Source of the DNA: Croceivirga thetidis
GTDB lineage: Bacteria; Bacteroidota; Bacteroidia; Flavobacteriales; Flavobacteriaceae
Assembly: GCF_012272815.1 (NCBI RefSeq)
Contig: NZ_JAAWWL010000001.1
Location: 1,080,154-1,144,153, forward strand
Direction: 5' to 3'
Length of the DNA stretch: 64,000 bases
Position 1 is the first letter of the stretch. Each line of letters begins with the position of its first letter. Shown in pieces: positions 20,474 to 36,605 of this stretch. Below the pieces are notes generated by a model. That model was not told the origin of the DNA and did not search any database. It saw only the letters and a program-made list of their open reading frames with translations. The position numbers and the translations under genes were made by a program.

Positions 20474-21913
20474 CAATACCATTTCTACAAGTTTAAAAGC
20501 AGACTTTGAAATGCCACATACCGCACAGCAGTAAGCTTCAGGTAACTTTTTAAAGGGGGTTTTTGGCGGGATGTCGGCTATCAAATCTCCCATTTCCTCA
20601 TCATAAACTGTTAGGCAAGAACTACATTGAAAAACCTGTTGCTTGACAAGTTCTTTTTTCACCACTTTTTTGGGCGCTTCGTCATTAATGGCATAGAGTT
20701 GATTAAAGTATGCCTTACTGAGTTCCATAAGTAATTGCCCTAATTGATATTGATCTACGTCTTGGGCATAAAGCACATATTCGTCAGAGTTCGGGTCAAA
20801 ATGCTTGAAGTGAAGAACATTATAAGTGGGTTTGCCTCCAAATTCTTTGATGGCATCAGGAAGGGGGTTTTTCTCAATGATGATTGAGGAAAAATGCGAC
20901 CGTTTCCCCACGTCATTACTGATTCCAAAGGTTAGCCCATAAGTGCTGATATCATTCTCGTTGAAATGTTTGACCAAATCTTTTTTCAGCTCCAAAGCAT
21001 CAGGGTCGTCGACAGGAAGATGCCAGTTCATTTCCAATTGGGAGTGTCGCACATTGATACCTCGTTGCCCAAGAAAGCGCTCCAGTTCTTGGCGGCTTTC
21101 TTTTGGAATACTCTTAACGATAAATGATTTCCAAGGAGTTATGCTGATTTTACCAATACTGTTATCCAAACAAAATCCGCAAAAATCTTTAAGGAAACCA
21201 AGGTCGTATTGATTGTTTCGCCAATACAACCCAAGCCAGTATTCATCAAGCCCCATGCGGTTCATCCCCTCATAATACGGGAAGGTTACAAAAGGAACTT
21301 GCAAAGGGTTGGTAATGGTTCGATTATTGGTCTGCAAGCTTTGATTTAGTATGGAAAACAACTGGTCTACATTGTCAATGGAAGCGTATACATTTTCAAT
21401 GGCCTTCGATACCTTGACGATATCCCAACTATATACCAAAACTGGGTAATAGGCTCTTTTCTTCCAATGTGGGAGCAAAATATTCAAGTACCAATAATCC
21501 TCTTGTTCTGAAGCAATGAAGTTCAAGTTGCCATTAAAGATGGGTACCAATCGCTGTTTGGGGTCGGTGATATTGATTTTGAGTTTTGGACTAAAATCAA
21601 ATTCTTCTAGAATATAGAGATAGGTCGAACCTTTAAGCCAATAGGTCATGTCAAAAATGTCTGCAGAAACATAAGACGAGACAATGTTTTGATAACTACG
21701 GTTCGATACAATTTGGGTACTGTAACTTGTGCTCTTTTCGAGTTCTGATTTTTTAGAAGTTGATAAGGGAAACAACAAATCTTGCCGAGATCCAAACGAT
21801 AATGTAGAAAGCCCTGCCTGCTCAAGCATGGCAATACCATCTTTGAGTTCCCCTGGTGATGTGACACCACCTTTAATTAAAATCCGATGTAAATCATCAT
21901 TTTTTATACTCAT
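20468..21913 (-). CDS. rubredoxin-tailed protein with SiR/NirB-like half domains (nitrate reductase partner)
   Basis: 481 residues. The C-terminal 56 residues are a rubredoxin domain: C430-x2-C433 and C463-x2-C466, with VYDEEMGD and an aromatic-poor PPKTPFKKLPE stretch. The first 420 residues show two segments like the ferredoxin-like half domain of nitrite/sulfite reductases (GGVTSPGELKDGI near the start; IGKISITPWKSFIVKSI at about 262-278), but no C-x5-C / C-x3-C siroheme cluster motif. It overlaps the nitrate reductase gene by four bases (ATGA), so the two are co-translated. An electron carrier or assembly role for the reductase is inference. Confidence 0.7.
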   Translation of the reverse strand: MSIKNDDLHRILIKGGVTSPGELKDGIAMLEQAGLSTLSFGSRQDLLFPLSTSKKSELEKSTSYSTQIVSNRSYQNIVSSYVSADIFDMTYWLKGSTYLYILEEFDFSPKLKINITDPKQRLVPIFNGNLNFIASEQEDYWYLNILLPHWKKRAYYPVLVYSWDIVKVSKAIENVYASIDNVDQLFSILNQSLQTNNRTITNPLQVPFVTFPYYEGMNRMGLDEYWLGLYWRNNQYDLGFLKDFCGFCLDNSIGKISITPWKSFIVKSIPKESRQELERFLGQRGINVRHSQLEMNWHLPVDDPDALELKKDLVKHFNENDISTYGLTFGISNDVGKRSHFSSIIIEKNPLPDAIKEFGGKPTYNVLHFKHFDPNSDEYVLYAQDVDQYQLGQLLMELSKAYFNQLYAINDEAPKKVVKKELVKQQVFQCSSCLTVYDEEMGDLIADIPPKTPFKKLPEAYCCAVCGISKSAFKLVEMVLS

Positions 21914-24900
21914 GCCAGTACCGTTTTAGCAGCATTTTTCAAAATGGCCTTTACCTCTGGTTTACAGCTGCCGCATCCTAAACCAGCTCCGGTTTGCGAA
22001 CAAAGCGCTTTAAATTCTGTATAGCCATCGGTTATGGCTTCTTGCAGATTTCCTTCACCAACCTGGGAGCACGAGCAAACCAGTTTGCCTTTTAATGGTT
22101 GGCTGTTCGACTGACCGCGCAACAATTCTTCCCGCTTATCGGAGAGTTCAATTTCCTCCTCTATCAAACGTTTAAATTCAGCGAATTCAGTTTTATCCCC
22201 CATAAGAACAGCTCCTTTCAGCATATCGTCCTTAACGATACATTTCTTGTAGAATCGCTTGCTGACATCCATCAGAATAATCTCCTCATAGTTTGGATCA
22301 TTTTTTGGAGTGTTTACCATGCCGATGCTACATAGGTCTAAATCTTCAAACTTGAGAATGTTCATTAGAACAGATCCCGAATAGATACTGCTTAGGTCAC
22401 CCAACAGGTAATTTGCTGCTACATCTGCTTGTTGTTCTGCTGCTGAGGTAATTCCGAAAAGGGCGTTTTCAAATTCTGCAATTTCGCCTAGTGCAAAGAT
22501 GTTGGGGTCACTAGTTTGTAGGTATGGGTCAACAATAACCCCACGTCTCGTGGAAAGCCCTGCTTCTTTTAGAATATCAATATTTGGCCGTGTACCAATG
22601 GCGTATACAATGGCATTACAACTAAGTGTTCTACCTGTTTTAAGACCAACATTCAACATGTTTTTACCTTCTTTCTCTTCAAAAACAGTGCTTACTTCAT
22701 TATCAAAATAGATTTGTATGCCCCTATCACGAACATCCTCTGCCAGCAATCTACTGGACACCATATCTAATTGACGTTCCATTAACCTTGGTGCACGCTG
22801 AATGATACTGATGTTGATGTTTTTTTTCTTTAGTGCCGCAGCAAGCTCTAAGCCCAACAATCCTCCTCCGACAATAACAACGTGCTGTTCTTCATTCGGT
22901 AATCCAGTGTCTTTTAGGTAGTGCTTCAACCGGTCGGCATCATTCCGTTCGCGCATGGTAAAACGACCGGGTAAATCAAGGCGCACATCACTGGGAATAA
23001 AGGCTCGACTGCCAGTGGCGACGATTAGCTTATCGTAATTGTGTTCGGTTCCTTTTTCGTCTATTACTTTTTTGAATTGGGGAAGAATAGCGTTGATTCC
23101 GTTTTCACCATGTAGGTTTACATTGAGCTTTTCAAGCTCTCCTTCTTTTAGTTTTTGAAGGGCCTCCCATGATAAATCTTCATTGACATACTCTGGTAGC
23201 AGCACCCTGTTGTAAAAAGGATATCGTTCTTTAGAGAAAACCTCGATTTCATCTAACTCGTTCTTTTCACGAAAAGACTGTATAAATCGATACGCTGCTG
23301 CTCCTGCCCCAACAACAATAATTTTATCTTTGGGTTTTTGATACTTTTCAACTTGAACAGCAGAATATTTAAAATCAGGTTCCTTGGATACAGGGTCAAT
23401 TAATTCCCCAGTTAAATTGTTGGCCCGCCCGAAATCATTGTTCAAAATTTTGCCCCAATGCATAGGCATAAAGACCACGCGTTCTCGAATATCAAAGTCA
23501 ATTTTGACCTTAACACGAACCGAACCTCTACGACTGGAAATAACTGCCACATCATCGTTTTTTAGGCCTCGTAGATAGGCGTCAACCCGGTTCATCTGTA
23601 AATAGGGTGTCGGAATATGGGTCGATAATCGTTTTACCTTTCCGGTTTTCGTTCTGGTATGCCACTGATCTCGTACACGCCCAGTATTTAAAATCAAGGG
23701 AAATTCAGCATCTGTTTTTTCTGATACATTCTCTAGCCGTTTTGGAGCATTAAAATGAGCTTTGCCGTCAGAAGTAAAATAGTTGTTATCATTAAAAAGT
23801 CGAGGAGTACCCGGATGCGATGCATTCGGCACTGGCCATTGAAAACTTCCTTCCCTTTTGAGCCGGTCGTGCGAAAGGCCTGAGATATCAATATTGGTTC
23901 CTTTGGTCATTAGGCAATATTCATCGTAAACCTCACTGACTGAATTGTATTCAAATCCAGGAAAATCCATTTCTTGTGCAAAGCGCCATAAGATTTCCGC
24001 ATCAGGTAATGCCTCGCCGGGAGCGTCGATAACCTTAGGTAAATAACTGATGCGGCGTTCAGAATTCGTCATGGTACCTTCCTTTTCCAACCATCCTGCA
24101 GCTGGCAATAACAAGTCTGCGTATTTTGTGGTTTCCGATTTATGAGAGATGTCTTGGACCACCACAAAATTGGCTTTTTCCAGGGCCTTTTCCACTTTTT
24201 TGGCGTTGGGCAAACTCACCACTGGGTTTGTACAAATAATCCAGACAGCCTTCATTTTTCCCGATTCCAATGCATCGAACATTTCAGTGGCTGTGAGACC
24301 GGGTTCTCCACTAATTTCGGTTCCACCCCAAAAGTCTTGAACTTCTTTTCGGTGTTTGGGATTACCCAAGTCACGATGTGCAGCCAACAAGCTTGCCATT
24401 CCCCCAACTTCACGTCCACCCATTGCATTCGGCTGACCGGTCAACGAAAATGGACCCGAACCTGGTTTTCCAATTTGCCCGGTAAGCAGGGAAAGGTTTA
24501 GCAATGAAACATTCTTGTCAACACCAATTACACTTTGATTCAGACCCATTGTCCACATGCTGATAAAGCCTTTGGCATCTGAAATCATTTTGGCTGCCTT
24601 TTTAATTTCGTTGACAGGGACCCCGCATTTTTCAGCCGCTTGTCGCAGCGACAATTCAAATGCTTTTGCTCGACAGGCTTCATAATTTGATGTGTGCAAT
24701 TTGATAAACGCCCGATCGACTTTCTTTTTTTCAATAAGCCATCGTGCCATTGCATTGAACAGAATTACATCTGTGCCGGGGAGAATTTGTAGATGTAAAT
24801 CGGCCAACTCACAAGTCTGAGTTTTGCGAGGGTCAACAACGATTATCTTTACTTTTGGGTTTTCCTCCTTGTGTTTTTCAATACGACGAAATAAAATGGG

Positions 24901-25443
24901 ATGGCACCAAGCCGGATTAGCTCCAGCAATTAAAAAGCAATCGGCCAATTCAATATCAGCATATGCAATGGGTACGGCATCGTTACCTACGGTTTTTTTA
25001 TAACCCACAACGGCCGAACTCATGCAGAGCCGAGAGTTGGTATCGATATTATTGGTGCCTAAAAAGCCTTTAGTCAACTTGTTTGCGAGGTAGTATTCTT
25101 CAGTAAGGCACTGGCCTGATACATAAAGGCCCACACTGTCTGCACCGTAGCGTTCAATGATGCTTTTGAAAACTGCAGCTGCCCGCTTGAAGGCAACATC
25201 CCAAGAAACCCGTTGTTTTTTGTGGCCTCGACTCCATCGCATCTCAGGAAATAAAATACGGTCAGAAGTATCTTGGGCGACGTAATTCAGTGTCTTTCCC
25301 TTGGTGCAGAGCATACCTTTATTTACAGGATATTCCGTATTTCCTTCAACGCTCAAAACACCTTTGGCGTCTTTTTCAACCGTGATTCCGCAGCCCACTC
25401 CACAATAGGAACAAATCGTGTTAAAGCGCTCTTTTCTTGCCAT
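21910..25443 (-). CDS. nasA: assimilatory nitrate reductase fused to NirB-like FAD/NAD(P)H oxidoreductase and BFD domain
   Basis: 1177 residues in three parts. (a) About 1-690: a molybdopterin nitrate reductase of the NasA/NapA group, with the 4Fe-4S ligands C11, C14, C18, C46, the Mo-ligand segment NSRLCMSSAVVGYK and the C-terminal guanine-dinucleotide domain (LILNTGRVRDQWHT). (b) About 700-1100: a NirB/NasB-like FAD-dependent pyridine nucleotide reductase (IIVVGAGAAAYRF; VVIVGGGLLGLELA; NIFALGEIAEF). (c) About 1118-1177: a BFD-like 2Fe-2S domain with C1123-x-C1125 and C1157-x2-C1160. One chain thus holds an NAD(P)H-to-nitrate path. Its promoter has paired TACGTA. Cytoplasmic; no Tat signal. 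Confidence 0.93.
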   Translation of the reverse strand: MARKERFNTICSYCGVGCGITVEKDAKGVLSVEGNTEYPVNKGMLCTKGKTLNYVAQDTSDRILFPEMRWSRGHKKQRVSWDVAFKRAAAVFKSIIERYGADSVGLYVSGQCLTEEYYLANKLTKGFLGTNNIDTNSRLCMSSAVVGYKKTVGNDAVPIAYADIELADCFLIAGANPAWCHPILFRRIEKHKEENPKVKIIVVDPRKTQTCELADLHLQILPGTDVILFNAMARWLIEKKKVDRAFIKLHTSNYEACRAKAFELSLRQAAEKCGVPVNEIKKAAKMISDAKGFISMWTMGLNQSVIGVDKNVSLLNLSLLTGQIGKPGSGPFSLTGQPNAMGGREVGGMASLLAAHRDLGNPKHRKEVQDFWGGTEISGEPGLTATEMFDALESGKMKAVWIICTNPVVSLPNAKKVEKALEKANFVVVQDISHKSETTKYADLLLPAAGWLEKEGTMTNSERRISYLPKVIDAPGEALPDAEILWRFAQEMDFPGFEYNSVSEVYDEYCLMTKGTNIDISGLSHDRLKREGSFQWPVPNASHPGTPRLFNDNNYFTSDGKAHFNAPKRLENVSEKTDAEFPLILNTGRVRDQWHTRTKTGKVKRLSTHIPTPYLQMNRVDAYLRGLKNDDVAVISSRRGSVRVKVKIDFDIRERVVFMPMHWGKILNNDFGRANNLTGELIDPVSKEPDFKYSAVQVEKYQKPKDKIIVVGAGAAAYRFIQSFREKNELDEIEVFSKERYPFYNRVLLPEYVNEDLSWEALQKLKEGELEKLNVNLHGENGINAILPQFKKVIDEKGTEHNYDKLIVATGSRAFIPSDVRLDLPGRFTMRERNDADRLKHYLKDTGLPNEEQHVVIVGGGLLGLELAAALKKKNINISIIQRAPRLMERQLDMVSSRLLAEDVRDRGIQIYFDNEVSTVFEEKEGKNMLNVGLKTGRTLSCNAIVYAIGTRPNIDILKEAGLSTRRGVIVDPYLQTSDPNIFALGEIAEFENALFGITSAAEQQADVAANYLLGDLSSIYSGSVLMNILKFEDLDLCSIGMVNTPKNDPNYEEIILMDVSKRFYKKCIVKDDMLKGAVLMGDKTEFAEFKRLIEEEIELSDKREELLRGQSNSQPLKGKLVCSCSQVGEGNLQEAITDGYTEFKALCSQTGAGLGCGSCKPEVKAILKNAAKTVLA

Positions 25444-25492
25444 AAATCAACCTGACTCTAGTGGTTTCTAAGGAATAGGAAAATTAGAAATT

Positions 25493-25508
25493 TACGTAGA
25501 AATACGTA
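25493..25508 (-). promoter_or_regulatory. paired TACGTA operator upstream of nasA
   Basis: TACGTA-GAAA-TACGTA, two hexamers one helical turn (10 bp) apart, 50-65 bases before the nasA start. A -7-like TAATTTTC lies at 25479-25486 on the minus strand. The same pair, with one degenerate hexamer, is upstream of nrtA and nirB. Confidence 0.6.
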
Positions 25509-25579
25509 GTAAGGAAATGACAAAAAGAAGCCCTTTAATTAAGAGATTGATAATTTTTTAGGGAAAGAAAAAAGGATTA

Positions 25580-26257
25580 TTAACCCACTAAATTATGTTC
25601 CTTCGCCTTTTTGGCTAGGTCCAATAAATTTTTAACCTGCATTTTTTTCATAAGGTTAAAGCGATGGGTCTCAATGGTGCGTTTGCTGTTTTGTAGTTTT
25701 TCTGAAATTTCCTTGTTGGTAAGACCTGTCAATACAAGTTCTAGCACTTGTAGTTCTTTGTTAGTGAGGTCAAAAGCATTTTGTTTGAGCGGCGTTTTAG
25801 TAGAAGTTGTCGTAGCAGTTCCAAACAAATTGTTTACCAGGACATTCGAAATATCTCCACTAAAAAATTTACCACCCCCGTAAACTGTGTGAATAGCCTT
25901 GATGAATTCGTTTTTATCCGTGTCTTTTAGAAGGTAGCCATTAGCTCCTGCCTGCACCGATTTCAAAATGTACTCCTCAGAATCGTGCATCGAAAGAATG
26001 ATACTTTTGGTTTTGGAACCTCCTTTTTTATTCAACCTTTCAACTGCTTCGATTCCTCCTAATTGGGGCATGCGAATGTCTATTATCAACACATCGGGAG
26101 ATAGTTCATCAACCATATCCAAAGCTTCCAATCCATTCGAAACTTCTCCAATGACATCCAGGTTTTCTTCCTCCTCCAGAAGCGCACGAATACCGTCTCG
26201 CACCAAAGCATGGTCATCGGCCAAAACAATGCGCACTTTTTCCGTAGTTTTGGTCAT
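25580..26257 (-). CDS. NarL/FixJ-family response regulator
   Basis: 225 residues: receiver domain (starts KVRIVLADDHALVRDGI; phospho-acceptor Asp in DVLIIDIRMP; Lys in YLLKDTDKNEF) and a C-terminal LuxR-type helix-turn-helix (LTNKELQVLELVLTGLTNKEI...RTIETHR). The frame extends upstream to 26308, but that stretch is the terminator hairpin of the porin gene and adds 17 residues foreign to the family, so the ATG at 26257 is chosen. It sits between nasA and the nrt operon. Likely partner: the NarX-like kinase at 36615. Likely targets: the TACGTA sites. Confidence 0.92.
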   Translation of the reverse strand: MTKTTEKVRIVLADDHALVRDGIRALLEEEENLDVIGEVSNGLEALDMVDELSPDVLIIDIRMPQLGGIEAVERLNKKGGSKTKSIILSMHDSEEYILKSVQAGANGYLLKDTDKNEFIKAIHTVYGGGKFFSGDISNVLVNNLFGTATTTSTKTPLKQNAFDLTNKELQVLELVLTGLTNKEISEKLQNSKRTIETHRFNLMKKMQVKNLLDLAKKAKEHNLVG

Positions 26258-26298
26258 GAAGCAAAAATAAAAGAATTCTTTAGGCGACAACAATAAGC

Positions 26299-26335
26299 AA
26301 GGGGCCATCTCAACATTTGTTGAAGATGACCCCTT
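26299..26335 (-). terminator. Rho-independent terminator of the nrt-porin operon
   Basis: Long inverted repeat, AAGGGGTCATCTTCAACA pairing with TGTTGAGATGGCCCCTT on the minus strand with a short loop, 25 bases after the porin stop codon. It separates the nrt operon from the response regulator. Confidence 0.75.
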
Positions 26336-26360
26336 CGAAGCAAAGTTCTTAATAGGCAGC

Positions 26361-27668
26361 CTATTGGTCTTTTTTAGTGGTAAACAGTGTTGGTTTGATA
26401 ATAATCATGGCCCAAGCCCAATTTTGAGAGCTTTTAAAATCGGTAGCTCCTGAACGTAATGTTTCCAATTCTTCAAGTCCATCAGAGGCAAATAATTGTG
26501 AGTACCCTATTTTAAGTGCAAAACCATTGAATTTTTGGGTCAACACTAAATCCAATTCATTGCCCAAATTACTTTCGCCACTAGGAGTGTCTTCCATGCC
26601 TTGGAAGTTTAAAAACTTGGTAAATAAGGTGGTTTTAGGGCCTAGGTTGAACACAGCGCTGGCATGAATATCCAATAAACCAACGCGGTTGACCCAGTTG
26701 CCTACATAAAAGTGATCCATAAAACCGTTGAATTTGTGGTTTGTACCAAAATGAGGCAAGAAAGCTTCTGTGGCGTCGGCGGTTGAGGCATCGTCACCAC
26801 TAATGGCTTCAATCCCTAAACCTAAAGTGGTTTTTGCTCCGGCTTTGTAAGTTGCTTCCAATCCTAGCAAATAAGCTCCTTCAATATCTACACCATTGAA
26901 GAATTCACCAGATTGCAAGTAGGCATTACCGGCGAGGCCAAACTTACCTTTTTTGTAATTCAAATGGGTTCCTGCTGTAAACGTACTTCTGATGTCGCTC
27001 ACATCACCTGTGGTAGCATCGATTTGTTGAAAACCTAAGTTAGCCAAAACCAAACTGGCACTGAAATCACCAAACTTTTTCTTCGCATAAAGGTGCTGCA
27101 TTGTTTTGTACTGAAATGGATTGCCAGAGTTGAATTCAGTACCTGCGTTTTTAAATCCAAACAAGGGCCCGCCTTGTCCGTCCAAATCTTGATTAAAAGC
27201 CAAACCAACATCCAACATAAAGCCATCGGTACGGTACTTAATCATTCCCAAATCATGATAGCGACCTTGTTGAGCCCAATCTAGGCCACCAAAGTATCGT
27301 TGGTCATCATAAGACAGCACTTGTCGACCTAATTTTGTTGACCAACCCTTACCCAACTGCAACTCTGCCCAGGCTTCAAATAGCGAAAAGGAGCTGTTGC
27401 CGTCAACAGGAACTAATTGTGGGTTTTCACCCCAAATCTGTACATCCTGAATGTTAATGTAAATCTCGTAAGATGGGGTCTTGTAGTTTGCACCTATTCT
27501 TGCTCTTGTATTGGTTACAAAGCCAGCATCAACGCCTTCTTGTTGTAAGAATTGGAAACCATTTCGGTATTCAGTCCGTGGACGAAAAGTAGCATCAAGG
27601 GTAAATTGTGCTTTTATATAATGTGTCGATAGGAAAACTAGGATTAAAAATATGAATGACTTTTTCAT
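26361..27668 (-). CDS. outer-membrane porin of the nitrate operon (alginate-export-like barrel)
   Basis: 435 residues with a signal peptide (MKKSFIFLILVFLSTHYIKA, cut before QFTLDA) and a beta-barrel pattern throughout (FTLDATFRPRTEYRNG; KLGRQVLSYDDQRYFGGLDW; repeated strands ending at aromatic residues). Such barrels are commonly labelled alginate export family proteins. It is the last gene of nrtA-B-C-D-porin, 37 bases after the second ATPase gene, so it is better read as the outer-membrane entry for nitrate/nitrite. That function is inference from operon position. Confidence 0.75.
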   Translation of the reverse strand: MKKSFIFLILVFLSTHYIKAQFTLDATFRPRTEYRNGFQFLQQEGVDAGFVTNTRARIGANYKTPSYEIYINIQDVQIWGENPQLVPVDGNSSFSLFEAWAELQLGKGWSTKLGRQVLSYDDQRYFGGLDWAQQGRYHDLGMIKYRTDGFMLDVGLAFNQDLDGQGGPLFGFKNAGTEFNSGNPFQYKTMQHLYAKKKFGDFSASLVLANLGFQQIDATTGDVSDIRSTFTAGTHLNYKKGKFGLAGNAYLQSGEFFNGVDIEGAYLLGLEATYKAGAKTTLGLGIEAISGDDASTADATEAFLPHFGTNHKFNGFMDHFYVGNWVNRVGLLDIHASAVFNLGPKTTLFTKFLNFQGMEDTPSGESNLGNELDLVLTQKFNGFALKIGYSQLFASDGLEELETLRSGATDFKSSQNWAWAMIIIKPTLFTTKKDQ

Positions 27669-27705
27669 GACTGGTTGCGTTAAGTGTTTTACAATAATTT
27701 GATTT

Positions 27706-28539
27706 TTAATGTTCTAAGAAATCGATAAGATGTTTTCTGTATTTGTAATAATCGTCGTGGTCGAGAACAGCCTTTCTTGAACGGGGTCGCTCGAAGTCAA
27801 TCTCAAGCACATCGCCAATTTTAGCACGTGGACCACTGGTCATCATCACCACTCTATCGGCCAAAAAGATGGCTTCATCAACATCGTGGGTAATCATGAC
27901 CGCAGTAATTTTTTCTTTGTTCCAGATTTCAATTAAGATGTCTTGTAATTCACCTCTGGTGAGTGAATCCAACATGCCGAAGGGTTCATCCAACAACAAA
28001 ACTTTGGGTTTTATGGCAAATGCCCTGGCGATGCCTACTCGTTGTTGTTCGCCTTGAGAAAGCTCTGTTGCCTTTTTGTTGAAAGCAGATTCCAAACCTA
28101 CCTTTTGCAAGTAGTATTTAGCAATGTCTTTCCGTTGGCCTTTGGTGGCATGCGGAAAAACACGATTGACACCTAGGAGCACGTTTTGCAAGGCTGTCAT
28201 CCAAGGCATTAAACTGGGGGCCTGAAAAATGACACCGCGGTCGGGTCCAGGTCCTTTTATAGGATTGCCCAATACCGAAATTTTACCTCCGGTAATTTCA
28301 TTAAGACCTGCAATCATTGAAAGCATGGTGGTCTTTCCACAACCCGAGTGTCCAATGATGGTAACGAACTCCTCCTTTAGAATTTGAAGGTTAAGATGCT
28401 CGAGTACCACATAATCTCCTTTTGGTGTAGGATAGACTTTTTTCAAATCCCTTAAATCCAACATCACTTTATCCGAAGGAAAGAAGATGCCATTTTCGTG
28501 GAATTGTTTTTCTGCTACTTCTGTTACAATTGTTTCCAT
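27706..28539 (-). CDS. nrtD: nitrate ABC transporter ATP-binding protein (NrtD-like)
   Basis: 277 residues from the ATG at 28539; an in-frame ATG at 28569 overlaps the preceding stop and adds 10 residues, so either is possible. Walker A GHSGCGKTT, signature LSQGEQQR, Walker B VLLLDEPFGMLD, followed by ITHDVDEA. Matches the NrtD/SsuB/TauB class. With the second ATPase upstream it forms a heterodimer driving the NrtB permease, as in cyanobacterial NrtABCD. Confidence 0.88.
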   Translation of the reverse strand: METIVTEVAEKQFHENGIFFPSDKVMLDLRDLKKVYPTPKGDYVVLEHLNLQILKEEFVTIIGHSGCGKTTMLSMIAGLNEITGGKISVLGNPIKGPGPDRGVIFQAPSLMPWMTALQNVLLGVNRVFPHATKGQRKDIAKYYLQKVGLESAFNKKATELSQGEQQRVGIARAFAIKPKVLLLDEPFGMLDSLTRGELQDILIEIWNKEKITAVMITHDVDEAIFLADRVVMMTSGPRAKIGDVLEIDFERPRSRKAVLDHDDYYKYRKHLIDFLEH

Positions 28540-28558
28540 GGTTTTAAAGGATTTTGAA

Positions 28559-29398
28559 TTACGCGACATAACTTTTCGGGCTCAAATCAGGCAGTTCGTA
28601 TACCTTTTTTGAAGCTGATTTACGCTCTTCCCCAATACCCATTAGGTATTCTATAATGGCGTTTCTGGTCTTTTTGTAATCTGGATTATCATTGAGTTCA
28701 GTCTTGTCCCGTGGACGTTCAATATTGATTTTGAACTCTGGCCCCAATGTGGCGTTTGGCCCTGGACGGAGCGGAATAATGCGGTCAGCCATATAAATGC
28801 CTTCATCCACATCGTTGGTAATCAAAAGTGCTGTTCGCTTGTCTTTACTCCAGATTTTCAAGATTTCATCTTGAAGGTTACCGCGGGTAAGGGCATCCAA
28901 AGCCCCTAGTGGTTCGTCCATTATAATCATCTCAGGATTCATGGCCAATGCACGCGCGACTGCTACGCGCTGACGCATTCCACCTGATAATTCTTTAGGT
29001 CGTTTATTGATTGCAGGAAATAGGCTCACCATTTTCACATATTCGTCTACCCGTCCCTTGATTTCCTTTTTACTGCTTTTTGGGAAAGCCTCACGAACCG
29101 CCATGGCCACATTTTGACCAACGCTCAACCAAGGTAAAAGCGAATAGTTTTGAAAAATGACCCCACGTTCATGACTGGTGTCCACCACAGGCTCTCCTTT
29201 AAAAAGGACCTCTCCGCTAGTAGGCTTCAACAATCCGTTGATGAGGTTGACCAACGTGGTTTTTCCACTTCCAGTGAACCCCACAATCGCAACAAATTCG
29301 CCCTCTTCAATACTTAAATTAATATCAGTGAGCACCTCGGTTTGGTTTGCTCCTTCCCCGTAAGTTTTGTGTATATTTTTAAGTTCTAAATATGCCAT
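28559..29398 (-). CDS. nrtC: nitrate ABC transporter ATP-binding protein (NrtC-like)
   Basis: 279 residues: Walker A GFTGSGKTT, signature LSGGMRQR, Walker B MIIMDEPLGALD, and LITNDVDEG in place of the usual THD switch histidine (Asn instead of His), so ATP hydrolysis at this site may be reduced and asymmetry with NrtD is likely. Cyanobacterial NrtC has an extra NrtA-like C-terminal domain; here the protein ends soon after the ATPase, so that domain is absent. 11 bases after nrtB. Confidence 0.88.
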   Translation of the reverse strand: MAYLELKNIHKTYGEGANQTEVLTDINLSIEEGEFVAIVGFTGSGKTTLVNLINGLLKPTSGEVLFKGEPVVDTSHERGVIFQNYSLLPWLSVGQNVAMAVREAFPKSSKKEIKGRVDEYVKMVSLFPAINKRPKELSGGMRQRVAVARALAMNPEMIIMDEPLGALDALTRGNLQDEILKIWSKDKRTALLITNDVDEGIYMADRIIPLRPGPNATLGPEFKINIERPRDKTELNDNPDYKKTRNAIIEYLMGIGEERKSASKKVYELPDLSPKSYVA

Positions 29399-29409
29399 AA
29401 TCGAAAGGG

Positions 29410-30516
29410 TTAAGCCATTGCATTTTTGTTGAACGAAACGGCGTTTTGAATGATGAGCATTATCCTATCCAACAAAAACCCGATGATACCAATGACAAAC
29501 ATGGCCACGATAATCTTAGAGTTGGAATCGTTGGCCCCATTCTGGAATTCTTCCCATACGAACGAACCTAGTCCCGGACTCTGTGCCAAGAGTTCAATTG
29601 CAATCAATACCATCCAAGCAACGGAAAGTGTGATTCGAAGCCCTGTGAAAATCAATGGAAGCGATGATGGTAAAATCACCTTAAATACTTTTTGAAGCGG
29701 CCCCAATTTTAAAACCTTCGCTACATTGATATAATCTTTGTCCACTGAGGAAACCCCCATTGCGGTATTGACCAAAGTGGCCCACATAGCGCATAGCCCC
29801 ACACTAATAAATGAGATAATGAAGGCACTATCTGAATTGGAATCTTTCGTCATTGTCTTTACGATCATGAAGACCAAAAGCAACCAAACCACAGGAGAAA
29901 CGGGCTTAAAAATCTGAATCAACCAATTAAAGGAGTTGCGAAGCGTCTTGCTCAACCCTATGATAATTCCAATCGGAACAGCAATCAGAAAAGCCAGAAC
30001 AAACCCCGCAAAAACCGTTTTTAAACTGGTGAAAATCTGGTCTACAAACGATGGGCGCCCTGTATACGTAATAGCATCTTTACCCTCGGCAATTCGCTTC
30101 TCGTTTATGGCCGCTGTCTTTTCCTTAAAAGCCAATTTGTCAGCACTAATGACCTTGTGGTCGGCAATCAAAGTATTGAAGGAGGCCCATACCTGTGAAG
30201 GTGAAGGCAGTGTGTTTGGTTGACAGCTGATGTCCCCCGAAAGAATACAGGCTTCCATCTGGTCGGCTGCGGCTTGCCCTTGTTCAGTCAAGGCCTTTTG
30301 AATCTTATAATCTGCCTCAACATTGAATAGCGCCTTGGCACCAAAATGCCATAATACAATGAATAGTACAATCGAGGCCAAGGGAATCAAAAGTTTTCTT
30401 ACCAGTCCTTTGCCATTAAACTTTGGCAACTTAAAGTTGATTTTGGACAGGAGTGTTTTGAGCACTCCTGCCACCTTTAATTCTTCAGATTTGTTTACGG
30501 TTACACTTTGCTTCAT
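29410..30516 (-). CDS. nrtB: nitrate ABC transporter permease (NrtB-like)
   Basis: 368 residues, longer than typical NrtB (about 275). One membrane helix near residue 45-62, then a 110-residue extracytoplasmic insert (about 65-170), then the BPD permease domain with five helices and the ATPase-contact EAA-type loop (SVDKDYINVAKVLKLGPLQKVFKVILP). C-terminal helices close with LDRIMLIIQNAV. Lies between nrtA (22-base gap) and nrtC. Confidence 0.9.
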   Translation of the reverse strand: MKQSVTVNKSEELKVAGVLKTLLSKINFKLPKFNGKGLVRKLLIPLASIVLFIVLWHFGAKALFNVEADYKIQKALTEQGQAAADQMEACILSGDISCQPNTLPSPSQVWASFNTLIADHKVISADKLAFKEKTAAINEKRIAEGKDAITYTGRPSFVDQIFTSLKTVFAGFVLAFLIAVPIGIIIGLSKTLRNSFNWLIQIFKPVSPVVWLLLVFMIVKTMTKDSNSDSAFIISFISVGLCAMWATLVNTAMGVSSVDKDYINVAKVLKLGPLQKVFKVILPSSLPLIFTGLRITLSVAWMVLIAIELLAQSPGLGSFVWEEFQNGANDSNSKIIVAMFVIGIIGFLLDRIMLIIQNAVSFNKNAMA

Positions 30517-30538
30517 GATTGTAACTTTTAAAGGGTTC

Positions 30539-31924
30539 TTATAGCGACGAATCGTCTTTGTTTCCTATCTCAAAACTGTTGATGTAGCCAATCGGGTTTT
30601 TGGCATCATAAGTGTTGCCATCAATAAAGTCGGAAGTTGCAGGTTTATAGCCATCAGTTTCAGGAATATCACTTGCTGGAATATGGCCTTCTTCCACTAG
30701 AAGGTTGGCGGCTTTCATCCAGATATCGGGTCGGTAGATGTCTTTAATTGTTTCTTCATACCAAGCAGCTGGTTTCGGGTCGGGAATTTGTCCCCATCTG
30801 CGCATTTGAGTTAAGAACCAAATACCATCGGAGTAGAAAGGGTAGGTTGCGTTGTACTTGTAAAACACATTGAAATCAGGCATCGAACGTTTATCGCCTT
30901 TTTCAAACTCAAAGGTTCCGGTCATAGAGTTCGCTAAAACCACTTCATCGGCGCCTACGTATTGAGGCATGGAGAGTATTTTTACAGCTTCTGCACGATT
31001 ACTGGGTTCATCCAACCACTTTCCGGCACGAATCAAGGCTTTGGTCACGGCAATGGCAGTATTTGGATTTTCATCGATGAACTTTTTGGTCATCACAAAT
31101 ACTTTTTCTGGATTGTTTTTCCAGATATCGTAGTTTGTTGTTACAGGGACACCGATACCTTTAAAAACAGCTTGTTGGTTCCAAGGCTCACCCACGCAGT
31201 ATCCGTAAATGGTTCCTGCTTCTAACGTGGCTGGCATTTGTGGTGGAGGAGTAACTGACAATAATACCTCTGCATCGATTTGTCCTTGTACATTATCAGC
31301 AGTGTACATTCCTGGATGGATTCCGGCAGCGGCCAACCAATAGCGAATCTCGTAATTGTGCGTAGATACTGGGAACACCATGCCCATTTTAAAGGGTTTA
31401 CCGTTGTTTTTGTATTCACTGATTACTGGTTTAAGTGCATCTGCTTTTATAGGGTGAGCTGGTTTTCCGTCAGCTCCTTTGGGTACGTTCGGCTTCATTT
31501 TAGACCAGACATCATTGGATACAGTGATACCGTTTCCATTTAAATCCATTGAGAACGGCGTTACCAATTCTGCTTGTCGACCGAAGCCTGCACCAGCAGC
31601 AATCGGTTGGCCTGAAAGCATATGAGAACCATCCAACTGACCGTCGATAACACGGTCCAATACATTTTTCCAGTTTGATTGTGCTTCTACGGAAACAAAA
31701 AGCCCTTCATCTTCAAAGAAACCCTTTTCTTTCGCTATGGCGAGAGGCGCCATATCGGTCAACTTGATAAAGCCAAAGGTCAATTGCGGTTTTTCAATTT
31801 CCAAGGTTGAAGTGGGAATATCGGCCTCCGCTGTTTCAGCGCTTTTTTTGGTTTGTTTGCCTCCGCAGGCGACGATAATTAGGGCAATGTAAAGACCTAA
31901 TAATTTTGTGAGCATTGCTTTCAT
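30539..31924 (-). CDS. nrtA: nitrate-binding lipoprotein of the ABC transporter (NrtA-like)
   Basis: 461 residues. Lipoprotein signal with lipobox L-I-I-V-A-C20. The mature protein belongs to the NrtA/CmpA class of substrate-binding proteins ([56 protein letters not shown]), large two-lobe binders of nitrate, nitrite or bicarbonate. The surrounding nas/nir genes point to nitrate. Its upstream region holds five TACGTA-like elements. Confidence 0.92.
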
Positions 31925-31963
31925 TGTTCTATCTTTTTAAGAGTTGAATACTTAATCGTGAAG

Positions 31964-31971
31964 CAAACCTA
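31964..31971 (-). promoter_or_regulatory. candidate nrtA -7 promoter box
   Basis: Minus-strand TAGGTTTG, exact match to TAnnTTTG, 39 bases before the nrtA start. It overlaps the first TACGTA by two bases. No -33 TTG is present, as expected of an activator-dependent promoter. Confidence 0.5.
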
Positions 31972-32027
31972 CGTAATTAAAATACGTATAAATACTTATT
32001 TTAATAATTTCTTACGTATTGTACGTA
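31970..32027 (-). promoter_or_regulatory. TACGTA cluster upstream of nrtA
   Basis: TACGTA at 31970-31975, 31983-31988, 32013-32018 and 32022-32027, and TACTTA at 31993-31998. The pair at 31983 reads TACGTA-TAAA-TACTTA, 10 bp apart. The rest of the 259-base gap to cobA holds no gene. Confidence 0.65.
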
Positions 32028-32183
32028 GTTTTTAGAGATGTGAAAAAGGACAGGGTGAATTTTGGTCAGTATGGAATTCTTAGCCCTGTGAATTGTCAAA
32101 TCGACAAACTTTTAAGAACTGGAAATATTCGATACTATTCAAATATGACTTCAAAAGTCTTTGAGCTGTTCAGGAAGTATATA

Positions 32184-32963
32184 TTATAAATAGGAATAGA
32201 GTACGCGCTGAATTTCTTCGTCATAGAAGGAGGTATGGTCGGCTACAACATCACCAATGACAATAATTCCAGGCTGGGTTTCATCGATAGCCTCAAATGC
32301 ATTTTCTGTAGAATTCAAGGTAGCGGTAATGCAACTTTCTTCAGGGAGTGTTCCATTTTGAATCAGTGCAATTGGAGTAAGTCCTGAGCGGTAGTCCCTT
32401 ACTAGTTCTGCGATTTGATGAATTTTACGAACACCCATCAATATGACCATGGTTGCTGATGACTTTGCGGCCAATATCAAGTCATTGGAAAATTGGCCTT
32501 CTTTGGTTGTGGCGGTCATTACCCAGAAACTGGTACTTACCCCACGTTTCGTTAATGGGATTCCCTGATTCGCTGGAACAGAAATTGCGCTTGAAACGCC
32601 AGGTATGATTTCAACAGAAATTCCGAACGATTCCAAATACTCAATCTCCTCAGAGGCCCTTCCAAAAACAAAGGGGTCACCTCCCTTTAATCGGACCACG
32701 TGATTTTGTGTTAGGGCGTATTCCAATAAAACTGTATTGATTTCGGTTTGGGTCATACTGTGCTTTCCACTACGCTTTCCTACGTAGATAAGCAGAGCTT
32801 TGTTCTTGGCATAGGTCAAAAGCTTCAGATTCACCAATGCATCGTACAAAATGACATCTGCCTGTTGAATTTCGCTCAAACCTGCAATAGTAATGAGGTC
32901 TTCACGACCTGGCCCTGCCCCCACAAGTGCTACCCTTTTTTGTTTTTCAATTTTTGACTCCAT
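32184..32963 (-). CDS. cobA: uroporphyrinogen-III C-methyltransferase
   Basis: 259 residues; SAM-dependent double methylation of uroporphyrinogen III to precorrin-2, first committed step to sirohaem. Motifs: LVGAGPGREDLITIAG at the N-terminus, YVGKRSGKHSMTQ, VVRLKGGDPFVFGR and TPIALIQNGT. A TTG at 32969 is in frame but the ATG at 32963 is the natural start. Diverges from nirB across a shared TACGTA-bearing region. With Met8 at 38476 and no cobalamin genes in view, sirohaem for NirB is the product. Confidence 0.94.
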   Translation of the reverse strand: MESKIEKQKRVALVGAGPGREDLITIAGLSEIQQADVILYDALVNLKLLTYAKNKALLIYVGKRSGKHSMTQTEINTVLLEYALTQNHVVRLKGGDPFVFGRASEEIEYLESFGISVEIIPGVSSAISVPANQGIPLTKRGVSTSFWVMTATTKEGQFSNDLILAAKSSATMVILMGVRKIHQIAELVRDYRSGLTPIALIQNGTLPEESCITATLNSTENAFEAIDETQPGIIVIGDVVADHTSFYDEEIQRVLYSYL

Positions 32964-32970
32964 AATCAAA

Positions 32971-33051
32971 TACGTACTGATTTGAATAAATCACAACAAG
33001 AATACGTAATTATTTTTATTTATACAGACAAAAAATAAGTATAAATACGTA
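32971..33051. promoter_or_regulatory. TACGTA cluster in the cobA / nirB divergent promoter
   Basis: TACGTA at 32971-32976, 33003-33008 and 33046-33051, with TAAGTA at 33036-33041 forming TAAGTA-TAAA-TACGTA (10 bp apart). A further degenerate TACGAA lies at 33067. The region is about 75% A+T and serves cobA on one side and nirB on the other. Confidence 0.65.
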
Positions 33052-33075
33052 ATATTGTTTCATAAATACGAAGCA

Positions 33076-35622
33076 ATGCAGCAGATAGTAGTTATTGGTA
33101 ATGGAATGGTAGGTTACAAATTCTGTGAGAAGTTGGTTGGCCTAGTGGAGCCGGGAATATTAGACATTAAAGTATTTGGTGAAGAACCGCGCCCAGCTTA
33201 TGATAGGGTTCATTTAAGTGCGTTTTTCGAAAATCAAGACGCCAAGTCTTTAGAATTGGCACCAGCATCTTGGTATGGTGAGAATGGTATTGAACTGATT
33301 ACAGGCCAATACATTTCTGATATTGATAAGAAGACCAAAACTATTAAAACAAAATCAGGTCAGAGGTATTCTTATGACAAATTGGTTTTGGCCACCGGAT
33401 CGGTTCCTTTTGTACCTCCCATTCAAGGTGTAGAAAAGGAAGGGGTTTTTGTGTATCGAACTATTGAAGATTTAGAGGGAATGTTGGCCTATGCCGATAA
33501 GATAAACACAAAAAAATCGAACGGGAAAGCTGCTATTCTTGGAGGAGGTTTACTTGGGCTTGAAGCAGGAAAAGCAGTACTTGATATGGGGCTTGAACCC
33601 CATGTGGTAGAATTTGCCCCGAAACTCATGCCAAGGCAATTGGATGCTCGAAGTAGCAAGGTATTACAATTGACCCTAGAGTCGATGGGGATCAATATTC
33701 ACCTTAGTAAAGCTACCAATCAGATTTTGGGTAATGGCTGCATTACAGGAATGGAATTTGGCGAGGATGATGAACTAGATGTTGACATGTTGATTATTTC
33801 GGCTGGCATTCGTCCGCGAGACGAACTTGCCAAAACCTGCGGCTTAGAGACGGGTACACGTGGGGGGATCATAGTCAATAATAAAATGCAAACTTCAGAC
33901 CCTTCGATTTATGCAATTGGAGAGGTTGCCTTATACAATCAGATGATATATGGCCTAGTGGCTCCGGGCTATGATATGGCCAATGTTGCGGCGAACCAAA
34001 TTGCAGGCAATGTTGATGTGCTCATGGCCGAGGAAATTGACATGTCGACCAAACTAAAATTGATAGGGGTTGACGTTGCTAGTTTTGGAACACCTTTCAT
34101 GCCTGCGGAAAAGGGGCATTCCGTCATTTTTGAGAACAAGACCAAACATTTATACAAACGGATTAATGTAAGCCATGACGGTAAAACCCTGTTGGGAGGA
34201 ATCTTGGTTGGAGATGCTGAAGATTATAACATTCTACATCAAATGTACCTGAATGGCTTGACTGTTCCAGAAGACCCAGCACAATTGATTTTACCTGCTT
34301 CTGAAGGAGCAGGGGCGCTAGGAGATGTTATGGACCTACCCGATACGGCCCAGGTATGTTCTTGTGAAAGTGTGACTAAAGGACAAATTTGTGGGGCCAT
34401 CGAAAGTGGAGCAGCTGCCGATTTAGGTGGTGTGGTCAGTTGCACCAAGGCGGGTACAGGCTGTGGCGGCTGCAAACCTATGGTCAAAAATCTGACCGAA
34501 GCCACCTTGAAGTCGTTGGGTATTGAGGTCAAGGACCAAATTTGTGAACACTTTGAATACAACCGTCAAGAATTGTATGATATTATTCAGGTCAAGGGAT
34601 ACCAAACCTTTGATGAGGTAATTGATAACCATGGCAATGGTTGTGGTTGTGAGATATGCAAACCAGTAGTAGCTTCTTTGATGGCCACAATTCACGCCGA
34701 TACTGCGAATAAGGAATATGCCATTCAAGATTCAAATGACCGTTTCTTGGCCAATATTCAGCGTAATGGTACCTATTCGGTTGTTCCTAGGGTTCCAGGT
34801 GGGGAGATTACACCTGATAAGCTCATAGCTCTTGGAGAAATAGCTAAGAAATACGACCTCTATACCAAAATAACTGGAGGTGTTCGAATCGATTTGTTCG
34901 GAGCCACCCTTAAACAATTGCCGCTCATTTGGAAAGAGTTGATTCACCATGGTTTTGAGAGTGGTCATGCGTATGGCAAATCTTTACGAACGGTTAAAAC
35001 GTGTGTGGGTTCTACCTGGTGTCGCTACGGTATGGACGAAAGTGTAAGCTTTGGTATTGAACTGGAAAATCGATATCGCGGAATTCGAGCTCCGCATAAA
35101 ATCAAAGGTGGGGTTTCCGGTTGTATTCGTGAATGTGCAGAAGCCCGCGGAAAAGACTTTGGGGTTATTGCGGTAGAAGGTGGTTGGAATCTCTACGTTG
35201 GCGGTAATGGGGGGGCTAATCCACGTCATGCCCAATTGCTGGCCGAGCAAATTGACAACGAGACTGTGATTAAATACATCGACCGTTATCTGATGTTCTA
35301 TATGCGAACGGCGAAACCGCTACAGCGCACGGCTGCCTGGTTGGAGTCTTTAGAAGGAGGTCTCAAGTATTTAAAGGAAGTGATAGTTGACGATACAATT
35401 GGAATTGCTGGGGATTTGGAACATGAGATACAGACGCTTGTAAACAAATACGAGTGTGAGTGGACGCAGGCTGTCAACGACCCAGAAATGATGAAGCGCT
35501 TTAACCACTTTGTTAACAGTGAGGAAGAGGATGATAATTTGGTCTTTGTACCAATGCGGGAACAAAAAATGCCAAAGCAGTGGGTAAAAGTGCCATTAAA
35601 ACAAGAAGAAGCAAACGTATGA
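33076..35622 (+). CDS. nirB: nitrite reductase (NAD(P)H) large subunit
   Basis: 848 residues from the ATG at 33076 (an in-frame TTG at 33055 is within the operator region). FAD/NAD domain with VVIGNGMVGYKF and AILGGGLLGLEAG; two BFD-like 2Fe-2S segments (VCSCESVTKG...GCGGCKP and GCGCEICKP, about 443-540); then sulfite/nitrite reductase half domain and the sirohaem/4Fe-4S domain with C-V-G-S-T-W-C and G-C-I-R-E-C ligands (about 642-685). Six-electron reduction of nitrite to ammonium in the cytoplasm. First gene of a six-gene operon. Confidence 0.95.
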   Translation: MQQIVVIGNGMVGYKFCEKLVGLVEPGILDIKVFGEEPRPAYDRVHLSAFFENQDAKSLELAPASWYGENGIELITGQYISDIDKKTKTIKTKSGQRYSYDKLVLATGSVPFVPPIQGVEKEGVFVYRTIEDLEGMLAYADKINTKKSNGKAAILGGGLLGLEAGKAVLDMGLEPHVVEFAPKLMPRQLDARSSKVLQLTLESMGINIHLSKATNQILGNGCITGMEFGEDDELDVDMLIISAGIRPRDELAKTCGLETGTRGGIIVNNKMQTSDPSIYAIGEVALYNQMIYGLVAPGYDMANVAANQIAGNVDVLMAEEIDMSTKLKLIGVDVASFGTPFMPAEKGHSVIFENKTKHLYKRINVSHDGKTLLGGILVGDAEDYNILHQMYLNGLTVPEDPAQLILPASEGAGALGDVMDLPDTAQVCSCESVTKGQICGAIESGAAADLGGVVSCTKAGTGCGGCKPMVKNLTEATLKSLGIEVKDQICEHFEYNRQELYDIIQVKGYQTFDEVIDNHGNGCGCEICKPVVASLMATIHADTANKEYAIQDSNDRFLANIQRNGTYSVVPRVPGGEITPDKLIALGEIAKKYDLYTKITGGVRIDLFGATLKQLPLIWKELIHHGFESGHAYGKSLRTVKTCVGSTWCRYGMDESVSFGIELENRYRGIRAPHKIKGGVSGCIRECAEARGKDFGVIAVEGGWNLYVGGNGGANPRHAQLLAEQIDNETVIKYIDRYLMFYMRTAKPLQRTAAWLESLEGGLKYLKEVIVDDTIGIAGDLEHEIQTLVNKYECEWTQAVNDPEMMKRFNHFVNSEEEDDNLVFVPMREQKMPKQWVKVPLKQEEANV

Positions 35623-36002
35623 TAATGGATTCAATATTGGAGCGATACAAAACTGTTGGACTCGAAGAGGTCGTAGTTTGGTTCAAGGCAGCACCCGTAG
35701 ACGCATTCCCGAAAGATGGAGGTGCCTGTGTAAAATACAAGGATTTACAGATTGCGGTTTTTAATTTTGAGCGATTGAACAAATGGTACGCTTGTCAAAA
35801 CCTGTCCCCTGAAAAGCAAGAAATGGTGTTGAGCAGGGGAATGATCGGAGATCAAAACGGCATACCAAAAGTAGCCTGTCCCTTGCACAAAAAAACCTTT
35901 TCATTGGTAACAGGTGAAAACTTAAACGGAGACCTTCCGGCAATTGCCTTATATCCCGTAAAAATTGAAGATGGTTTTGTGTATCTTGGTTTTTCGGATT
36001 GA
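35619..36002 (+). CDS. nirD: nitrite reductase small subunit (NirD)
   Basis: 127 residues; Rieske-like fold with ACPLHKKTFSLVTGE in the second metal-site position. The first site reads YACQN instead of C-x-H, so a complete Rieske cluster is not possible; NirD proteins are known to keep the fold without the cluster. The start at 35619 overlaps the nirB stop (ATGA), giving translational coupling; ATG at 35625 is an alternative. Upstream in-frame codons lie inside nirB. Confidence 0.9.
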   Translation: MIMDSILERYKTVGLEEVVVWFKAAPVDAFPKDGGACVKYKDLQIAVFNFERLNKWYACQNLSPEKQEMVLSRGMIGDQNGIPKVACPLHKKTFSLVTGENLNGDLPAIALYPVKIEDGFVYLGFSD

Positions 36003-36017
36003 AGAAAAACCCCTGCT

Positions 36018-36605
36018 ATGGAGGCTTCCCAAAAACTGAACAAGGCGTTCGAATTATTTGATGCGGCAAATTCCGAAGACCCAAACGAAGAGGTCTTTGA
36101 AGGGGTGCCATTCCCAAAAGAATTGTTGTATTCGCAACGTATGACTGCGGTGCTCGATGAATTTGAGCCGGATGCTTCGGTAGCACTTCAATTAACTGCC
36201 AGATGCCAACACATTTGCCGTTGGGAAATACCACGAGATTCGTATGAAATGAATCGAGTTGGGTATTTACAATGGCGACAAGAACTCAAGAAATTCCATG
36301 CAGAAAAAGCTGCTCAAATTTTAAAAGAAGTTGATTATGACTCACAATTGATAGATCGGGTACAATTTCTTCTATTAAAAAAGAAATTAAAAAGGGACCA
36401 GGAAACTCAAACATTAGAAGATGTAATATGCTTGGTTTTTTTAAAATACTACTTCGAACCTTTTTTGGTAAAACACGATGATGATAAAATCATTTCCATT
36501 TTAAAAAAGACGTGGAAAAAGATGTCTGAAAAAGGTCAACAAGCAGCACTGCAATTGAATTTCTCTGAAAAGGGAAAAGCCTTGATAGCCAAGGCACTGG
36601 AATAA
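36018..36605 (+). CDS. DUF4202 family protein in the nirBD operon
   Basis: 195 residues, soluble, mostly helical. Recognisable DUF4202 features: a start of LNKAFELFDAANSEDP, ELLYSQRMTAVLDEF, ARCQHICRWEIPRDSYEMNRVGYLQWR and FLKYYFEPF. The conserved His, Cys, Arg and Glu residues suggest a ligand or metal site, but no function is established that I know of. 15 bases after nirD and 9 before the kinase gene, so it is part of the nitrite reductase operon; a role in reductase maturation or nitrogen control is a guess. Confidence 0.8.
   Translation: MEASQKLNKAFELFDAANSEDPNEEVFEGVPFPKELLYSQRMTAVLDEFEPDASVALQLTARCQHICRWEIPRDSYEMNRVGYLQWRQELKKFHAEKAAQILKEVDYDSQLIDRVQFLLLKKKLKRDQETQTLEDVICLVFLKYYFEPFLVKHDDDKIISILKKTWKKMSEKGQQAALQLNFSEKGKALIAKALE

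Follow-up and report, generated by a model that had tools for sequence, protein, structure and literature searches.

What reads the hexamer TACGTA that recurs in the promoters of a nitrate-assimilation gene cluster of Croceivirga thetidis, and to what effect? We addressed this question in a window of 64,000 nucleotides, by which we mean the whole stretch of DNA that was analysed (contig NZ_JAAWWL010000001.1, positions 1,080,154 to 1,144,153), and in sets of related genomes. Comparative evidence makes it quite probable that the NarL-type response regulator encoded at 25580-26308 binds the TACGTA repeats and works with a sensor histidine kinase encoded at 36615-38486, a prediction that covers the binder and the set of controlled genes under either sign of control. 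From comparisons of this kind we infer the identity of the binder, nitrate as the signal, the operon structure and the sign of control.

Hexamers and 16-bp units in three intergenic gaps

The window contains 17 copies of TACGTA, compared with a mean of 6.2 and a maximum of 16 in 100 shuffles. Nine of them fall in three intergenic gaps that together measure 507 base pairs (bp): two before nasA (25493 and 25503), four before nrtA (31970, 31983, 32013 and 32022) and three between the divergent genes cobA and nirB (32971, 33003 and 33046). At the rate seen in the rest of the window these gaps would be expected to hold 0.06 copies, and none of 20,000 first-order Markov versions of the three gaps reached nine. 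The remaining eight copies (420, 5051, 14978, 30065, 30956, 32781, 45541 and 61006) all lie within listed open reading frames (ORFs). A first-pass annotation, made from the letters of this DNA, had reported the counts of two, four and three, with copies elsewhere in the window sparse and genic, and both statements were borne out, although its estimate of about 200 bases of promoter DNA in all falls well short of the 507 bp measured. It had also described 16-bp units, each made of two hexamers, at 25493, 31983 and 33036, and their letters and coordinates proved to be exactly as it gave them.

Written as the strict pattern TAMGTA-N4-TACKTA, the unit occurs at four places in the 3.7-Mb genome, three of which are the units in the window; the same pattern read backwards, used as a chance control, occurs at three. 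We judged the fourth genomic unit (C2:121466, L107) to be a chance occurrence; it lies in a convergent gap before a yebC-type gene and starts 30 bp past the end of a paralogous NarL-type gene. Units with two mismatches were set aside as background, with 54 places genome-wide versus 135 for the reversed pattern.

The predicted promoter elements are listed below, where the -7 box is the Bacteroidota promoter element TAnnTTTG; its companion, TTTG at -33, is described in the accessible portion of PMC2483708 as a requirement for full activity.

25493-25508, no strand: predicted 16-bp operator unit of the nasA promoter, TACGTAGAAATACGTA (hexamer count, sequence reading, conservation)
25487-25498, minus strand: nasA promoter, hexamer overlapping a near -7 box with one mismatch, TACGTAAATTTC
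31983-31998, no strand: predicted 16-bp operator unit of the nrtA promoter, TACGTATAAATACTTA (hexamer count, sequence reading, conservation)
31964-31975, minus strand: nrtA promoter, hexamer overlapping an exact -7 box TAnnTTTG, TACGTAGGTTTG
32013-32027, no strand: two extra TACGTA hexamers with a 9-bp step, upstream of the nrtA unit
33036-33051, no strand: predicted 16-bp operator unit common to divergent nirB and cobA, TAAGTATAAATACGTA (count, conservation)
33046-33057, plus strand: nirB promoter, hexamer overlapping a near -7 box with one mismatch, TACGTAATATTG
32997-33008, minus strand: cobA promoter, hexamer overlapping a near -7 box with one mismatch, 33 bp from the unit, TACGTATTCTTG
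32971-32976, no strand: TACGTA immediately ahead of the likely cobA start codon

For nirB, the ATG at 33076 is a more likely start than the TTG at 33055, which would leave 24 bp between the nirB unit and the start codon, and for cobA the ATG at 32963 is the more likely start.

Conservation and co-occurrence with the regulator

We scanned 200 bp before each gene at 80 loci chosen by their regulator, using a pattern that allows one degenerate hexamer and leaving out genes whose upstream sequence was short, whose identity was low or whose match started late; we place the relatives in the family Flavobacteriaceae from those that are named. The unit was found upstream of nasA at 72 of 73 loci, of nrtA at 47 of 47, of nirB at 58 of 58 and of cobA at 53 of 53 (nirB and cobA share their gap), and the same scan found it upstream of the regulator gene at 0 of 80 and of the porin gene at 0 of 76. 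Under the strict pattern it was retained at 71 nasA, 46 nrtA and 58 nirB loci. Six control hexamers were far rarer in the same upstream regions, although the related TACTTA reached 17 to 23.

We then turned to sets of genomes that were not chosen by the regulator. In an order-level set of 296 genomes, 29 matched NasA; with six partial matches (32-44%) excluded, NasA was full-length in 22 genomes and split in one. A close orthologue of the regulator (E 4.4e-68 or better) was present in all 23 of these genomes, the window genome included, and in 1 of 20 nasA-negative genomes searched; the kinase was present in the same 23 and in none of 7 other genomes, these 20 and 7 having been selected rather than drawn at random. 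All 22 assessable genomes carry the unit at the nasA transcription unit, G037 being excluded for having nasA at a contig edge; in G256 the unit precedes a 476-residue gene upstream of nasA.

A phylum-wide set of 395 genomes contained NasA at E 1e-250 in 33, including 18 that were new relative to the order-level set, and two of these 18 (G469 and G454) encode a close regulator. Units are found at three places in G469: in front of nirB, of a porin-like gene and of a 474-residue gene preceding nasA. Among the 13 genomes without a regulator at E 1e-45, TACGTA is absent from the 200 bp scanned in ten, and in the other three the sequence extracted contains no unit; G303, G433 and G455 were examined for the 16-bp unit only, and the NasA match of G455 lacks its first 151 residues. 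Phylum-wide, 24 assessable genomes encode a close regulator, and 23 of them have the unit at the nasA transcription unit, compared with 0 of the 13 genomes that lack such a regulator. A separate draw of 199 genomes from the family yielded nirB in 46 genomes of 45 genera, again with the window genome included, and all 46 have the unit before nirB and encode both regulator and kinase. Conservation before nasA, nrtA and nirB orthologues, on which the first-pass annotation had made its operator proposal depend, was therefore seen in the regulator-chosen loci and, for nirB, also in a draw made without regard to the regulator.

A likely regulator-kinase pair and the sign of control

The first-pass annotation had named the product of 25580-26308 as the protein that binds the repeats, and site layout, conservation and co-occurrence, all of them comparative, lend that proposal support. 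This protein matches the receiver domain PF00072 (E 2.1e-28) and the GerE domain PF00196, a LuxR-type helix-turn-helix (E 4.7e-18), in Pfam. Its best solved relative is NarL (1a04, E 1.4e-34), although with 146.1 bits it stays below the NCBIfam NarL equivalog cut-off of 250, and by these matches we describe it as probably resembling NarL in its working and do not class it as NarL itself. On the minus strand the gene order is nrtA, permease, two ATPases, porin and regulator, with ORF gaps of at most 52 bp, and we infer that this row forms a single operon. A Pfam scan of the cluster ORFs between 17.5 and 42.3 kb found no DNA-binding protein besides this regulator. The genes of the cluster are as follows.

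20468-21913, minus strand: rubredoxin-domain protein, overlapping nasA
21910-25443, minus strand: NasA, assimilatory nitrate reductase-type, fused to a reductase module
25580-26308, minus strand: NarL/FixJ-type response regulator, receiver and GerE helix-turn-helix, final gene of the nrt row
26361-27668, minus strand: outer-membrane porin, alginate-export-type, in the nrt row
27706-30516, minus strand: nitrate ABC transporter, two NrtC/D-type ATPases and an NrtB-type permease
30539-31924, minus strand: NrtA-type substrate-binding protein (NMT1-like)
32184-32969, minus strand: cobA, uroporphyrinogen-III C-methyltransferase (sirohaem)
33055-36002, plus strand: nirB nitrite reductase and a nirD-type Rieske_2 protein
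36615-38486, plus strand: nitrate-sensor-type histidine kinase, with PilJ, PAS, HisKA_3 and HATPase_c, in the nirB row
38476-39054, plus strand: sirohaem synthase-type dehydrogenase, downstream of the kinase

The row of nirBD and the kinase also encodes a DUF4202 protein (36018-36605) and a DUF7009 protein (39059-39427).

The kinase, which the first-pass annotation did not mention, is the likely sensor partner of the regulator, judging from gene neighbourhood and domain content. In G261, a genome of the same family (genus g2), the regulator gene adjoins that of a kinase whose domains are PilJ, PAS, HisKA_3 and HATPase_c, and a search with that kinase found the one at 36615-38486 as its orthologue in the window. 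Residues 50-141 of the window kinase match PF13675 (E 1.7e-11), which we take to be the NarX-like sensor entry; PAS_9 is present, and HAMP and GAF gave no match at E 0.001. Its P-box reads N-V-A-G-R-Q-R, in which G64-R65-Q66-R67 fits G-x-x-R. N61, G64, Q66 and R67 are invariant across 30 aligned kinases (the window kinase plus 29 picked for full length from the 42 in fetched loci), and a G-x-x-R-type motif was matched by pattern in 36 of those 42. The available text of PMC8199190 gives G-x-x-R as the nitrate-binding motif and describes a Bacteroidetes class of sensors, partly with PAS and without HAMP or GAF, labelled narHK/narRR. The P-box, together with a PAS domain and no HAMP or GAF match, thus places the kinase-regulator pair in a class already known in silico.

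Kinase orthologues at L168-L170 and in G642, G718 and G804 are about 450-490 residues long, match from residue ~160-220 onwards and seem to be without a sensor part. Operator units still stand before nirB in G642, G718, G804, L169 and L170, and at such loci the signal may be read by another route.

The NarL heptamer consensus is TACYYMT, which the units in the window miss, as the fourth base of the hexamer is G, neither C nor T. The unit is nevertheless 16 bp long and inverted, matching in length and layout the 7-2-7 site of Escherichia coli NarL. According to the accessible part of PMC4549865, the engineered NarL narG -89/-89 site is likewise 16 bp and inverted. Position 10 is a conserved A at nasA, nrtA and nirB (0.86, 0.96 and 0.95), and position 7 a conserved T at nasA (0.96) and nrtA (0.72), with only 0.36 at nirB. 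A NarL-like 7-2-7 register of the unit seems likely. The 46 nirB units of the family draw comprise TAAGTA...TACTTA (20), TACGTA...TACTTA (15), TACGTA...TACGTA (6) and TAAGTA...TACGTA (5), and in the regulator-chosen set a further hexamer lies exactly 33 bp from the unit in 57 of 58 nirB promoters. We rejected an RNA-hairpin reading of the palindrome because the nrtA units keep a mismatched stem, with A at position 3 in 0.80 and G at position 14 in 0.91.

Two other features were noted across L005-L084: a block resembling ACTATTA, which lies upstream of the nasA unit at a distance of ~13-21 bp, and a CAT, recognised by eye, ~22 bp before the nrtA hexamer.

In the mechanism that we envision, the kinase would sense nitrate (or nitrite) via its P-box, and phosphotransfer would alter the occupancy of the units by the regulator. 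The 16-bp unit would serve a regulator dimer as an inverted repeat, most likely of NarL-like heptamers separated by two bases, and the extra hexamers, at a distance of one or three helical turns, could be taken by further copies of the regulator. The three gaps would in this way drive four gene rows together, covering the transporter, the porin, the nitrate and nitrite reductases, the sirohaem enzymes and both regulator genes. Because both regulator genes lie within the controlled rows, the system would be a dedicated and autoregulated one, a layout on which the first-pass annotation was silent.

Several observations weigh against this assignment or against the register. Regulator and motif share descent, so that the counts above are not independent, and the family draw of 199 genomes held no nirB-positive, regulator-negative genome and hence offers no contrast. 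G454 has the regulator and four TACGTA before nasA but zero strict units, three genomes with intermediate regulators (1e-48 to 1e-54) have no TACGTA before nasA, and L079, one of the 73 nasA loci, is without TACGTA too. The exact palindrome TACGTA-N4-TACGTA occurs in 7 of the 20 nasA-negative genomes, in two of them with 14 and 15 copies, and is missing from 4 of the 23 nasA genomes, namely G206, G256 and G017, which carry variant units instead, and G037, whose nasA promoter is not assessable. Some kinase orthologues, as noted, seem to have no sensor part. As for the register, the invariant outer letters of the unit are partly imposed by the search pattern, and at nirB the outer TAC...GTA has become TAA...TTA in 20 of 46 units. 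At position 8 the share of T is 0.70 to 0.90, similar to that at position 7, and we therefore discarded the conservation of positions 7 and 10 as proof of a 7-2-7 arrangement; TACGTA is itself palindromic, and the letters at positions 7 to 10 do not separate 7-2-7 from 6-4-6. Symmetric paired change was likewise discarded as evidence for a dimer, as the symmetric pairs among the 46 nirB units (20 and 6) show no excess over the 19 and 5 expected under independent change.

The sign of control turns on how the hexamers sit relative to the -7 box. At all four promoters in the window a hexamer shares bases with a -7-like box, one exact and three with one mismatch, an overlap that the first-pass annotation had not pointed out. 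Across the 80 loci, a hexamer shares its last TA with the box at nirB in 58 of 58 (23 exact), at cobA in 53 of 53 (21 exact) and at nasA in 61 of 73 (6 exact), and at nrtA 39 of 47 have a hexamer that either shares its end with the box or adjoins it directly; among the controls, the pattern turned up in 6 to 9% of Markov versions and in the upstream regions of 0 of 76 porin genes and 3 of 80 regulator genes. The same hexamer-box pattern also occurs at 33030-33041 (minus strand) and 33007-33018 (plus strand) in the cobA/nirB gap, and at nasA 40 of 71 offer another candidate box, at unit +22. In 45 of the 46 nirB genomes of the family draw, TTTG (exact in 37, one mismatch in the others) stands behind the last TA of the nirB unit at the spacing of a -7 box, and no single upstream offset carries a -33 TTTG or TTG in more than 3 of the 46 nirB promoters. 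At nrtA, the full unit starts 10-18 bp after the start of an exact TAnnTTTG in 34 of 46 orthologues.

The overlap of hexamer and -7 box favours exclusion of polymerase, whereas the missing -33 element and the fixed unit-to-box register favour activation. We lean slightly toward a bound regulator that excludes RNA polymerase, with nitrate relieving the block, and regard activation as the main alternative. A fuller version, which we put forward tentatively and at somewhat less than even chances, is a sign-reversed NarX-NarL system: the regulator on the -7 box would block polymerase, and the HAMP-less sensor, upon binding nitrate, would turn the regulator off, with operator hexamer and -7 box merged (TACK-TAnnTTTG) through much of the Flavobacteriaceae. 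If instead the same regulator at the same sites were a nitrate-induced activator, its operator would stand in for the missing -33 TTTG and recruit or remodel RNA polymerase. NarL-type regulators often activate, for example at napF and yeaR in the accessible text of PMC4549865, and such a role would suit the nirB promoters, with no -33 element at a common offset, one that PMC2483708, as far as its available text goes, calls necessary for full activity, and with an identical register in 45 of 46 genomes, as well as the nrtA promoter in the window, where the unit sits upstream of the box. Yet the two bases shared with the box at nirB, cobA and most nasA promoters speak against activation, as does the nrtA unit of 34 of 46 orthologues, which lies downstream of an exact box near the start site, where NarL represses frdA in the same portion of PMC4549865. 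On balance we find the activator doubtful, though a real possibility.

Three further explanations dispense with the regulator as reader or with an operator altogether. Another transcription factor, encoded elsewhere, could read TACGTA, with the 25580 regulator merely linked; in G191 and G064, which have no close nas regulator, the 16-bp palindrome lies near another kinase/NarL-type pair, so that reading TACGTA is not unique to the 25580 regulator. We nonetheless consider this unlikely, given that the motif tracks the orthologue of the 25580 regulator phylum-wide and that the scanned cluster ORFs yielded no second DNA-binding protein. The hexamer's overlap with a -7-like box at most of these promoters would also fit an extended core promoter or alternative-sigma element in place of an operator, but one sigma element would have one spacing, and the unit-to-box distance varies by promoter (+14, +18, +24 to +27, or downstream of the box), with additional hexamers in 10-bp and 33-bp steps, which makes this explanation very improbable. 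Finally, the gaps look AT-rich by eye, and a chance cluster or low-complexity effect of such DNA could be imagined; we give it next to no weight in view of the Markov versions, none of which reached nine hexamers, the far rarer control hexamers (TACTTA with its 17 to 23 notwithstanding) and the retention of the unit before nirB in 46 of 46 genomes.

Known systems and the palindrome at other loci

The system resembles NarX/NarQ-NarL/NarP of E. coli in its regulator, whose best solved relative is NarL, in its 16-bp inverted site, in its G-x-x-R kinase and in its nitrate-gene targets. It differs in that the window kinase has PAS with no HAMP or GAF match, the regulator falls below the NCBIfam NarL cut-off, the targets are assimilatory and the hexamer overlaps the Bacteroidota -7 box; moreover, the core is TAMGTA, unlike the C/G-rich core of the engineered NarL site in the part of PMC4549865 at hand. 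With the Bacteroidetes narHK/narRR class, as far as the available text of PMC8199190 describes it, it has in common a P-box sensor, the absence of both HAMP and GAF, a PAS domain (in Flavobacteriales) and genetic linkage with nitrate genes. That text gives no operator or target promoter, and the predicted operator, regulon and promoter geometry are what we add here. Mycobacterial NnaR (PMC6277429, PMC11162112) is, by the titles of those papers, a response regulator needed for nitrate/nitrite assimilation and an orphan, unlike the window regulator with its likely partner kinase in another phylum; the two are likened by description only. Our literature searches of open-licence papers found no nitrate-assimilation operator in Bacteroidota.

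These comparisons yield a concrete cis-code, with a likely reader and a likely sensor, across 45 genera of one family, and they tie an orphan-looking regulator to a kinase in a separate gene row. They also point to the merging of a NarL-like operator and the -7 box of the phylum into one sequence, and signalling by HAMP-less, GAF-less Bacteroidetes nitrate sensors, a question raised in the accessible part of PMC8199190, becomes testable.

The palindrome also appears outside nitrate assimilation. G191 and G064, of the same family and without NasA, contain 15 and 14 exact copies, at loci L108-L117 and L171-L176 mostly as pairs 33 bp apart (one pair 32) and mostly within ~200 bp before scattered genes. 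The genes behind these pairs include some for TIR/ThsB-like, OLD-TOPRIM AAA_15, AAA_11-like and DUF1761 proteins and one of secreted type, and many are without a Pfam match; at L108, pairs also lie near a gene pair for a HisKA_3 kinase and a NarL-type regulator. The copies may represent a second NarL-type regulon, partly defence-like, with the same operator, or else a dispersed repeat.

The 16-mer TACGTAAAAGTACGTA, listed in twelve genomes, lies at L118, L119 and L120, from which its gene context was taken, between a 2-oxoglutarate dehydrogenase E1 gene (identified by Pfam on L118 and by the same gene size in L119 and L120) and a divergent 183-residue gene. In two genomes the palindrome (L121:2595 and L122:2722) stands in the gap that separates an HMG-CoA-synthase-like gene, recognised by Pfam on L121, from a divergent 221-residue gene. 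L123, from a genome (G176) without NasA or a close kinase, retains the regulator between a TACGTA in front and the palindrome behind, an arrangement that is possibly a remnant.

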